DNA from: Georgenia muralis
GTDB lineage: Bacteria > Actinomycetota > Actinomycetes > Actinomycetales > Actinomycetaceae
Assembly: GCF_003814705.1 (NCBI RefSeq)
Contig: NZ_RKRA01000001.1
Span: forward strand, 3,292,776-3,356,775
Length of the DNA stretch: 64,000 nt
Reading direction: 5' to 3'
In this document: piece by piece, positions 9,718 through 13,365 of the stretch
How positions within the stretch are numbered: position 1 is the first letter of the stretch
How the letters are laid out: every line of letters begins with the position of its first letter
Notes under the pieces: model-generated
Database searches by the model: none
Told to the model about the DNA's origin: nothing
Seen by the model: only the letters and a program-made list of their open reading frames with translations
Translations under genes and position numbers: made by a program

Positions 9718-10098
9718 TCAGGATACCGCGCCGAGCACCAGCACGCCGACGACGCCGAGGAGGGCGGCCCAGATGTAGCTCGCCAGCGTGCCGATGATGA
9801 ACCGTTCCGCGGCGGGGCTGCGCTTGTCGGGGTGGGCCTCACGCAGCTCGGGGTAGCGGCCGAGCCCCTTGACGGCGAGCACGACGGCGACCGTCTCGGG
9901 GTAGCCGGCCAGGACACCGCCGGTGATCGCGAAGCGCTCGAGCATGCCGATCCAGGTGCCCCCGCGGAGCACGCCGGGGATGACCGGCCCCGGCTCCACG
10001 CGCCGCAGGGTGGCACCGACGATCACCCGGCCCAGCAGGGCCGAGAGCAGCAGCACGGCGAGGACGACGCCCGCCTGGAGGCCTGTGGTCGAACTCAC
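9718..10098 (-). CDS. small membrane protein, partner of the SatD-like protein (DUF3307 C-terminal-like)
   Basis: 126 residues with about three membrane segments (roughly 7-27, 50-70 and 100-124) and a conserved-looking core: [33 protein letters not shown], and [19 protein letters not shown]. From memory this resembles the C-terminal half of DUF3307 membrane proteins, which lie next to satD in some Firmicutes; no function is known. Start GTG (10096-10098) overlaps the stop of the SatD-like gene as GTGA, so the two are co-translated. No signal peptide other than the first helix. Function not assigned; the family link is tentative. Confidence 0.7.
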
Positions 10099-10805
10099 CT
10101 GTTCTCCTTCGAGGGTGGGACGCGTGCGGTGTCGTCCGCGGCGCCGGTCCGGGAGGGTGTCTCAGCGCCGGTCCGGGACGGTGCGGCGGGTTCGGTCCGG
10201 GACACCTCCTCGGCGCCGGTGAGGAGCTCCGCCGCCAGGGGCCGGGCGGCGCGCTCCTCCTCGATCATGGCCGAGCGCACGCGCTGGCTCACCGCCTGCT
10301 CGCTGATGCCCAGCGCCGCGGCGACGTCCTTCTGGAGGGTCCCGCCCACGAGCCGGTCCGCCACCTCCCAGCCGGGCGCCGAGCGACGGCGCACCACGGC
10401 GGCGAGGAGCTGCAGGAGGGCGGTGGCCCGCTCGGCGGCCGCGGCGTCCTCGCCGGTGACGACCACCGGTTCCGGCACGGCCCGGCCCCGAGCCCGCTCG
10501 ACGGCGGTACGGGCGTGGACGAACGCCGGTCCCGAGCTGGCCCGGGAGGTCTGCGCCAGTGCGTCGGTCGGACCGGCGCCGATCCCGACGGCCCACTCGC
10601 CCAGCCGCATGAGGTGCAGCGCCAGGTCGACGGCGGCGGAGGCGTCCGACAGGACGATCTGGACCTCGTCGCCCACGGTCCGTTCGAGGGGCAGCACGAC
10701 GGCGTCCGCGTGGGCGCGTGCCCACCCCTCCTGCGCGTCGAGCAGCGCGGCGACCTTGTCGCCACGGACCTTGCTCGCGTGCTGGTCTGCGGTGAGCACG
10801 AACAT
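10095..10805 (-). CDS. SatD-family-like protein with C-terminal helix-turn-helix
   Basis: 236 residues. Residues 1-105 match the SatD pattern: a first strand with an acidic residue (VLTADQHASK, Asp7), then ERTVGDEVQIVL (GDE at 45-47), a helix, and VGIGAGP at 73-79 followed by a SSGPAFVHARTAVERA helix. The order and spacing also recall the class III nucleotidyl cyclase core (first metal Asp, KxxGD, VGI-GP, late helix). Residues 148-180 form an HTH (LQKDVAAALGISEQAVSQRV), and the tail is a low-complexity Thr/Glu/Ala/Pro repeat. Start ATG at 10803-10805 has no ribosome-binding site but a good promoter seven bases upstream, so the mRNA is likely leaderless. Probably a nucleotide-sensing DNA-binding protein; ligand unknown. 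Confidence 0.72.
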   Translation of the reverse strand: MFVLTADQHASKVRGDKVAALLDAQEGWARAHADAVVLPLERTVGDEVQIVLSDASAAVDLALHLMRLGEWAVGIGAGPTDALAQTSRASSGPAFVHARTAVERARGRAVPEPVVVTGEDAAAAERATALLQLLAAVVRRRSAPGWEVADRLVGGTLQKDVAAALGISEQAVSQRVRSAMIEEERAARPLAAELLTGAEEVSRTEPAAPSRTGAETPSRTGAADDTARVPPSKENR

Positions 10806-10855
10806 GGAATCAAGCCTAGGGGCTAGACTATAGGAGGTCAAGGTTTCAGGCTTGA
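10806..10855 (-). promoter_or_regulatory. leaderless promoter of the SatD-like gene, spanned by an inverted repeat
   Basis: Minus strand reads TTGACC (10836-10841), a 17-nt spacer, TAGGCT (10813-10818), then seven bases to the ATG. This is the best sigma-70-type promoter in the window. The perfect inverted repeat TCAAGCCT / AGGCTTGA sits at 10810-10817 and 10848-10855, 38 nt centre to centre, one arm on the -10 box and the other just upstream of -35. Such placement suits a dimeric repressor, plausibly the HTH protein itself. Confidence 0.65.
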
Positions 10856-11102
10856 TTGATGCGTGGGTGCTCGGGACAGGACCAGGATGCGCCATGCTCC
10901 AGACCGGACCCCGGGCTGCGCGCGCTCGACGCCCGACCGAGGGTGCACGCAGACGACGGCCCGAGGGCACATCCCCCGATGATCAAGGGTGATCGCTTGA
11001 TGCGCCGCCATCGCGTCCACGGCCTTGTTCGAACCAGCTGCCGTGCCGCCATGCACCGCGATCTCCGCGGTTGACGCGGCGCCATGGCCACACGGACCGC
11101 CC
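10856..11102. other. intergenic region between satD-like promoter and aroK
   Basis: About 250 bases with no convincing gene. It holds an imperfect hairpin with arms ATCAAG and CTTGAT (10982-11001), which share the TCAAG core of the satD-like operator; this may be chance. No U-rich terminator follows the aroK stop at 11103. Confidence 0.5.
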
Positions 11103-11636
11103 TCAGCCGCGCAGGACCGCCAGGACCGCCTCGGCAACCTCGGTCGGACTGAGGGACGAGGTGTCGACGACGGCGTCGGCGGCCGCTGCGTAGACGGGCC
11201 GGCGTGCGTTCGCCATGGCGGCGTACTGGGCGCGCGGGGAACCCACGACGACCGCCCGCGGGGCGTTGAGGCCGACGCGCGGCATCGCCGCCGCGAGCGA
11301 GACGTCGAGGAAGACGACCGTCCCGCCGTCGCCGCGGTAGGCCTCCAGACGCTGTGCCACGCCCGGGACGGCTCCCCCGCCCAGCGCGACCACGCCGGGC
11401 CGGCCGAGCGCGGCCGCGGCCACCTCGGCCTCGACCTCGCGGAACCGCTCCTCGCCGGCATCGAGGAAGTAGTCCCCCACGTCCGTGCCCACCCGCGCCG
11501 CGAGGAGGTCGTCGGTGTCGAGGAGCTCGACCCCCAGCCGGTCGGCGAGGAGCGCGCCGACCGTGGACTTCCCGGCACCGGGGGCACCGAGGAGGACGAG
11601 CGTGGGGATCTGGGTCACCGGGGAACCGTACGTCAT
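11103..11636 (-). CDS. aroK: shikimate kinase (second, stand-alone copy)
   Basis: Phosphorylates shikimate at O3. 177 residues with Walker [10 protein letters not shown] near residue 20, the DTDD shikimate-binding acid, FREVE (Arg contacting shikimate), LGGGAV (Walker B-like glycine motif), lid Arg in NAPRAVVVG and ANARRPVY near the end, so no key residue is missing. Chosen ATG 11634-11636 overlaps the stop of the upstream AroK-AroB fusion (ATGA). It is less like the classical enzyme than the fused copy (lid APRAVVVG in place of RPLL), so it could have a shifted substrate or be a back-up. Part of the aroC-aroKB-aroK unit. Confidence 0.85.
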
Positions 11637-13351
11637 CCCCGCACCGCGGCCCATGCGGCCTCGAGCTGCTCCGGGGCCGGGCCGCGCAGGATCGTGGGCC
11701 GGCCGACGGCGTCGAGCACGACGAAGCGCAGGGTGGACCCGCGGACCTTCTTGTCGCTCGCCATCGCGTCGAGGAGGTCCGGCCAGCGGTCCTCGCCGTA
11801 GGCGGTGGGTAGGCCCAGCGCCTCGAGCACCCCGCGGTGGCGCCGGACGTCCGTCTCGTCCAGGTGCCCGGCCGCGCGGGCGAGCTCGGCCGCGAAGACC
11901 ATCCCCACGGCGACGGCGTCGCCGTGGCGCCAGGTGTAGCCCTCGGTCCGCTCGATCGCGTGGGCGAAGGTGTGGCCGTAGTTGAGGATCTCGCGCAGAC
12001 CGGCCTCGCGCAGGTCGGCCCCGACGACACGCGCCTTGACCGCCACGGCGCGCTCGACGAGCTCACGCAGGACGGGTGACCCCGGACGGAGCGCCGCCGC
12101 GCCGCCGTCGGCCTCGACCAGGCGGAGGATCTCCTCGTCGGCGATGAAGCCGCACTTGACGACCTCGGCGAGGCCGGCGCGCAGGTCCACCGCGGGCAGT
12201 GTCCCGAGGGAGTCCAGGTCGCACACGACACCGGCGGGCGGGTGGAAGGACCCGACGAGGTTCTTGCCCGCGGCGGTGTTGATGCCGGTCTTGCCGCCGA
12301 CCGCGGCGTCGACCATGCCGAGCAGGGTGGTCGGCACGTTGACGAGCCGGATACCACGCAGCCACGTCGCGGCCACGAAGCCGGCCATGTCGGTCGTGGC
12401 GCCCCCGCCGAGGGCGACGACCGCGTCGTCGCGACCGAAACGCCGCTCCCCCAGCAGGTCCCAGCAGCCGGCGACGACGTCGAGGGTCTTCGCGGACTCG
12501 GCGTCGGGCACCTCGTGGGTCAGGGCCGTGCGGCCGGCGGCGGCCAGCTCAGCCCGCAGCGCCTCCGCGCGGCCCGCCAGGGCTGCGGGGTGGACGAGGA
12601 GGACGCGGGAGGCGTCGGGGCCGACGAGGTCGAGGACCTCCCCGTCCAGCCCATGGCCGACGACGACGTCGTACGGGGCGGCGCCCGTGACCGTGATCCG
12701 GGTGGCCGGTGCCGCGGGTGCCGTCGGTGCGGGTGCTGAGGCTGGTGCGGGTCCTGGGGCTGGTTCGGCTGACGACGCCGGTGCCTGGGGTGCCGCCGGT
12801 GCGGGTGATGTGGCTGGTGCGGCTGACGACGCCGGTGCCACGAGGGTCCGCAGGACGTCGGCGGCGACGTCCTCGGCGGTGCGTCCGCCGGTGCCCACCC
12901 GCGCCGTCGCGACCCGTTCGTACACCGGACGACGTGCGGTCATGAGTGCCTCGAAGCGCGCGGCCGGGTCGCCCTCGAGGAGGGGGCGGGCACCTGAACG
13001 GGCAACCCGGGCCACGGCGTGGTCGGCGTCGACGTCGAGGAAGACGACGTGGTGCCCGGCGAGGGCCGCCTGGGTGCCGGGGTGCAGGACGGCGCCGCCG
13101 CCGAGGGCCAGCACGCCGTCGTGCTCGGACAGCAGGCGGGTGACGGCGTCGTGCTCGAGCACCCGGAACTCGCTCTCGCCACGGGTGCGGAAGATCTCCG
13201 GGACGGTCGTCCCCGCGAGCCGCTCCACCTCGGCGTCGGAGTCGCACAGCGGCACACCCAGGGTGGCGGCGACGAGCTCACCGACGGTGGTCTTGCCGGC
13301 CCCCGGGGGGCCGACGAGGATGAGGCGGGGACCGGTTCCGGAGTGAGCCAC
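11633..13351 (-). CDS. aroKB: bifunctional shikimate kinase / 3-dehydroquinate synthase fusion
   Basis: One open frame joins two shikimate-pathway enzymes. Residues 1-165 are a complete shikimate kinase: [35 protein letters not shown], lid ARPLLEG and ARRPVYE. Residues about 170-215 are an Ala/Pro/Ser linker built from DNA repeats. Residues 220-572 are Aro[39 protein letters not shown], the zinc/active-site segments [18 protein letters not shown] and [10 protein letters not shown]. The steps catalysed are second and fifth in the pathway, so direct channelling is not obvious. A TTG nine bases further up overlaps a -10-like TAGCGT, so GTG at 13349-13351 is preferred, probably leaderless. No stop or frameshift between domains was seen. 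Confidence 0.88.
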
Positions 13352-13359
13352 GAGGCGCA

Positions 13360-13365
13360 ACGCTA
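13360..13365 (-). promoter_or_regulatory. candidate -10 box for aroKB
   Basis: TAGCGT on the minus strand lies eight bases before the GTG start of aroKB, in the 76-nt gap after aroC. No ribosome-binding site is seen, which fits a [15 protein letters not shown] here. No clear -35. Confidence 0.4.

Follow-up and report, generated by a model that had tools for sequence, protein, structure and literature searches.

A SatD-like protein with a predicted class III cyclase-like palm in Georgenia muralis, its co-translated membrane partner and putative operators with a 28-bp period

Organization of the satD-like locus

The window, i.e. the whole stretch of 64,000 nucleotides of Georgenia muralis DNA that was analysed, contains a satD-like gene followed by a gene for a small membrane protein (Table 1). 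Both genes were found where the preliminary description had placed them, with the GTGA overlap and the length of the membrane protein given there, and they are flanked by aro genes, encoding an SKI-type kinase and an AroK-AroB fusion, and by efp-nusB. The protein-synthesis gene efp adjoins satD in 47 fetched loci, repeated fetches being counted. In the aro cluster, the stand-alone shikimate-kinase-family (SKI) protein adjoins the fusion, giving two SKI domains in one cluster, and among the fetched loci the stand-alone copy was confined to members of the genus and one close relative.

Table 1. Features of the satD-like locus, numbered from the first nucleotide of the window
Feature	Position	Strand	Remarks
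satD-like CDS	10095-10805	minus	ATG start; 236 aa; palm, helical linker, HTH, long C-terminal helix, disordered tail
Domains of the SatD-like protein	residues 1-118 (palm), 158-178 (HTH)		class III cyclase-like palm (predicted)
Membrane partner CDS	9718-10098	minus	GTG start; 126 aa; four long helices (predicted); overlaps satD stop by 4 bp (GTGA)
Proximal putative operator array	10809-10856		one half-site per 14 bp
Proximal half-sites	10809-10814, 10823-10828, 10837-10842, 10851-10856		ATCAAG, CTAGAC (degenerate), GTCAAG, CTTGAT
Distal perfect putative operator	10982-11001		ATCAAG-N8-CTTGAT; unique as an exact copy in the genome (4.14 Mb)
Putative promoter	10813-10841	minus	TTGACC (10836-10841), 17 bp, TAGGCT (10813-10818); weak; read from sequence
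Stand-alone SKI protein	11103-11654	minus	shikimate-kinase family
AroK-AroB fusion	11633-13360	minus	

Family membership and distribution of the gene pair

The motifs listed in the preliminary description are all present in the SatD-like protein (D7 in strand 1, ERTVGDEVQ, VGIGAGP at residues 73-79, and G92-P93 followed by a helix), with ERTVGDEVQ occupying residues 41-49 rather than 42-49. Assignment to SatD held only in part at the level of the single sequence, as the window protein scored 16.5 bits with the Pfam SatD profile (PF16264), below the curated cut-off of 29, whereas matched relatives of the same order exceeded it (79.4 bits for L029 and 38.4 bits for L098). The window protein is linked to clear members of the family through such intermediates as L029 and falls into a single tree with canonical SatD. 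It shares the motif order of the family (D..S, TxGDExQ, GIGxG, GPxxxxAR and HTH) and has a DUF3307-type neighbour, but lacks the DGxxWW segment of canonical SatD.

SatD matches with conserved motifs were obtained in 200 of the 297 genomes of the order, and satD is single-copy in most related genomes. The partner adjoins SatD in 27 of 30 loci of a first set and accompanies it in 79 of 80 loci of a second, in one of which (L094) it lies about 2 kb away. A 4-bp overlap is usual among loci with placed starts, and the two genes are arranged head-to-head in L030, L098, L099, L103 and L106. Co-occurrence across genomes, on which the preliminary description had staked its proposal, was strong: both genes were found in 176 of the 297 genomes, SatD only in 24, the membrane protein only in 2 and neither in 95 (Fisher p 9e-52, kinship uncorrected). 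The homologues with conserved motifs in 200 genomes, together with a partner that is adjacent nearly everywhere, argue that the pair is real and not a product of chance.

The scan of genome contigs returned mainly Actinomycetota, and the pair was also found in Acidobacteriota, Alphaproteobacteria, Fusobacteriota and Halobacteria, so that the conservation across phyla claimed earlier extends to archaea. In Lactococcus lactis, both the SatD and the DUF3307 families match, this being the sole indication of pairing in Firmicutes. Plasmid-borne pairs occur in Halobacteria (L113, L114 and L116), Sphingomonas (L112), Agrobacterium pAt (L117) and Arthrobacter (L115); some of these plasmids are conjugative, and the Sphingomonas and Agrobacterium plasmid partners are short, like that of the window. 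A phage origin of SatD was considered and rejected, since a SatD query (L102) gave 0 matches in 50,697 phage records and a Foldseek search against viral proteins returned mainly HTH-type matches, none below 1e-3.

A predicted class III cyclase-like palm

The AlphaFold2 model of the SatD-like protein, built with 25 relatives (pLDDT 90.5), has a palm of b-a-b-b-a-b-a-b topology (strands 2-8, 36-42, 47-52, 71-77 and 114-118; helix 93-106), followed by a helical linker, the HTH (helices 158-165 and 169-178) and a long helix. The prediction of a cyclase-like fold, put forward from the sequence, agreed with this model. The first six Foldseek ranks in the PDB were all class III adenylyl cyclase Ma1120 (best E 2.7e-3, prob 1.00), followed by Rv1264, Rv1900c and then GTP cyclohydrolase III, with zero matches passing E 1e-3, and hhalign of SatD against a profile of cyclases from genomes of the same order gave 91% (score 43.6), whereas 20 column shuffles scored no higher than 19.0 and the reversed control 11.6. 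In contrast, the score with GGDEF was 27.8 (27%), and PucR GGDEF_2 gave 0.1%; neither was retained as a homologue. These comparisons link the predicted palm to class III cyclases rather than to GGDEF domains.

Class III cyclases have two metal-binding aspartates, a transition-state Asn and Arg in the helix that follows strand 4, and a substrate Lys in KxxGD. The hhalign alignment places D7 on the first metal aspartate and G45-D46 on the second, and the modelled protein would thus have both the palm and the two aspartates of this class (PF00211; Ma1120, Rv1264 and Rv1900c). SatD does not conserve the catalytic Asn and Arg or the lysine of KxxGD: the lysine position is R or variable, and a low-confidence extension of the alignment sets cyclase GPTVNLASR against SatD GPAWWAARE, so that the Asn has no counterpart and the Arg is displaced by one position. 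The term degenerate, used previously for this core, therefore fits the missing Asn, Arg and Lys but not the metal site, both aspartates being invariant when the partner is present. SatD further differs from the cyclases in its added HTH and attached small membrane gene. Regulators of the PucR/CdaR type with a GGDEF-like domain, such as Rv2242 and BAD_0249, combine a palm-like domain and an HTH in one protein; they resemble SatD in this respect and gave weak Foldseek matches, but SatD has no GGDEF_2 profile similarity and those regulators have no membrane partner.

The membrane partner

The partner is predicted to consist of four long helices (pLDDT 92.8, with plasmid copies left out of the folding input), comprising helices only and no ligand-binding domain; a search for a known fold gave no PDB match below E 1.8. 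Pfam had no match on the window partner, including PF11750, which describes the N-terminal region of DUF3307. Its core nevertheless aligns with the unnamed C-terminal domain of full-length DUF3307 proteins, in line with the resemblance noted before, and shares with them GxxIGxLER...AxKxxxR...ExxxIGTxxS, although it lacks the N-terminal region. The DUF3307 C-terminal domain adjoins SatD in Fusobacterium and Halobacteria. In Halorientalis, for example, the gene next to that of SatD (112.6 bits), and overlapping it, encodes a 252-aa protein of which residues 15-115 are PF11750 and the C-terminus aligns with the window partner. Residues G47, G51, E54, K77, R81 and G103 are invariant in 48 partner sequences from Actinomycetota, Acidobacteriota, Pseudomonadota, Fusobacteriota and Halobacteria.

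Putative operators upstream of satD

Upstream of satD we found palindromic sites, proximal and distal (Table 1), which the preliminary description had overlooked. The proximal array is overlapped by the putative promoter, which a consensus promoter scan did not call and which ends 7 nt before the ATG, suggesting that the satD mRNA is probably leaderless. In the short-type clade, to which such arrays are common, ATCAAG and CTTGAT half-sites alternate at a spacing of 14 bp, whereas canonical actinobacterial satD genes are preceded by ATGAAG and CTTCAT half-sites at 13 and 15 bp. A 6-mer recurs in direct orientation at a distance of exactly 28 bp in 30 of 41 short-type and 29 of 48 canonical satD promoters, and this peak was absent from the upstream regions of orphan satD genes and from control stretches inside genes. 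Comparable arrangements were seen in Natronosalvus (TACAAC/GTTGTA half-sites at -66, -52, -37 and -23), in Halorientalis (CCGAAC/GTTCGG half-sites spaced 14-15 bp) and, as palindromes with a 28-bp repeat, in the alphaproteobacterial plasmid copies of Sphingomonas and Agrobacterium. Tandem palindromic half-sites with a 28-bp period, the letters of which differ by lineage while the spacing persists into archaea, thus form a putative operator type that is new here.

Exact ATCAAG-N8-CTTGAT occurs 49 times in the 297 genomes, and 28 of these sites closely precede satD, in most cases at a distance of exactly 31 or 3 bp from its start; in the G. muralis genome, 1 was observed against 0.006 expected from base composition. 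A conserved putative operator therefore lies at the promoter of satD itself, which is consistent with an autoregulatory transcription factor and lends support to the DNA binding proposed earlier. A wide regulon was rejected, the exact site being unique in the window genome. The sites track satD, although they could be bound by another regulator. One exact palindrome (L265; G024 C3:36027-36046) lies away from the satD of its genome. In addition, at one locus with no detectable satD (L295, genome G181), a perfect SatD-type operator pair 28 bp apart (1677-1724) precedes a solo membrane gene (1787-2191), in which the usually conserved KGLGR motif is altered (KVLAHW).

The metal site and the presence of the partner

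We found that the metal motif of SatD tracks the presence of the partner, a relation that is new here and has three to four independent losses behind it. Position 7 is Asp in 147 of 147 readable partnered copies versus 3 of 32 orphans, and GDE is intact in 147 of 147 versus 10 of 33, in a set that includes some repeated fetches; the HTH core is retained by the orphans. Two satD copies occur together in 11 genomes, which share one duplication history, and there position 7 is D in the copy with the partner and N in the orphan. The SatD tree contains four changes of partner state, three of them with motif loss and never the reverse, and a paired sign test on partner loss and motif loss gave p >= 0.25, the events being too few to reach significance. 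The pattern of the link is therefore strong, but few independent events stand behind it, namely three to four losses. Exceptions that keep the metal motif without a partner are L231 and the recent orphan L091, downstream of which a search for a partner pseudogene remnant found none. The orphans of family f11 occupy the original efp-linked place, indicating that the partner was lost in situ. These efp-linked orthologues (L221-L230) have lost partner, metal motif and operator while retaining the HTH, and are candidates for a new role.

Possible function of the SatD-membrane protein module

On balance we think that SatD is probably, if by no great measure, autoregulatory, with its metal/nucleotide palm coupled to the membrane partner. 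As an autoregulating DNA-binding protein, it would occupy, through its HTH, the tandem palindromes of 28-bp period at its own promoter, and operator occupancy would set the amounts of SatD and of the co-translated membrane partner, presumably by repression. The cyclase-like palm, which retains the metal site (D7 and D46), would most likely bind a Mg-nucleotide. Palm and membrane domain may work together, most simply as a direct complex, since the partner is small, has no ligand domain and is translationally coupled; the state of the membrane protein and that of the bound nucleotide would then alter DNA binding by SatD.

An alternative that we consider unlikely is that SatD is catalytically active as a nucleotidyltransferase or cyclase and controls the membrane protein through its product, with autoregulation like that of a toxin-antitoxin operon. 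A palm enzyme fold with both metal aspartates, the constraint on these only when the membrane gene is present, and a two-gene operon with a small membrane protein, on plasmids too, are all in keeping with it, as is the report that satD of S. pyogenes is essential yet accessory (PMC11323703), which would be expected if SatD restrained something toxic. Its precedent is Panoptes, in which the palm enzyme mCpol restrains the toxic membrane effector 2TM-beta (PMC12657230) and, as in the SatD pair, a palm protein is encoded beside a small membrane protein; this likeness is one of layout, and the SatD partner has no beta-barrel whereas SatD has an HTH. A known defence system of the Panoptes/Pycsar type was rejected, as PADLOC families gave only weak HTH-region matches (E 0.007-0.03). 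The absence of the class III Asn, Arg and lysine, a four-helix partner with no ligand-binding domain, and the distribution of satD, which is chromosomal, single-copy and found widely rather than patchily in the order, also argue against a signalling enzyme.

Equally unlikely, in our judgement, is that SatD is an ordinary repressor whose palm serves a structural purpose, and that the membrane protein has an independent transport or envelope task and is joined to SatD only through repression. The HTH with its putative operators, the operator pair before the solo membrane gene of one genome and the orphans that keep the HTH without the metal site would all suit such a repressor, but the invariance of D7, D46 and E47 in all partnered copies, from Actinomycetota to archaea, and their change in orphans are unexpected of a purely structural palm. 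That the coupling reflects shared ancestry only, two old SatD clades happening to have lost both, accords with the few changes on the tree and the sign test, but appears quite improbable given that the motif disappeared in three of the four losses, with no case of the reverse, and that the two-copy genomes differ at position 7, albeit through one duplication.

Beyond the autoregulator coupled to its partner, SatD and the DUF3307 C-terminal domain might form a new module for nucleotide signalling that is very widespread in bacteria and archaea, in which a cyclase-fold enzyme represses its own operon through the 28-bp-spaced operators, a membrane effector is held in check by the metal-dependent product of this enzyme or by its nucleotide-bound state, and loss of SatD is harmful; we regard this wider proposal as rather unlikely. 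In streptococci, SatD is the name of an acid-tolerance operon, and no function for the SatD fold or DUF3307 was found in the literature searched, which was mostly without subscription papers and whose silence is not proof. Both SatD and DUF3307 have family names but no assigned function, although satD is reported as essential in screens of S. pyogenes, and their pairing, found in bacteria and archaea, had never been explained. Both families now gain a testable anatomy, namely a predicted cyclase-type metal site, putative operators whose letters and spacing are defined, and a partner in which E54, K77 and R81 are invariant; the putative operators may represent a rare case of a 28-bp spacing that persists between domains of life although the letters of the half-sites differ.
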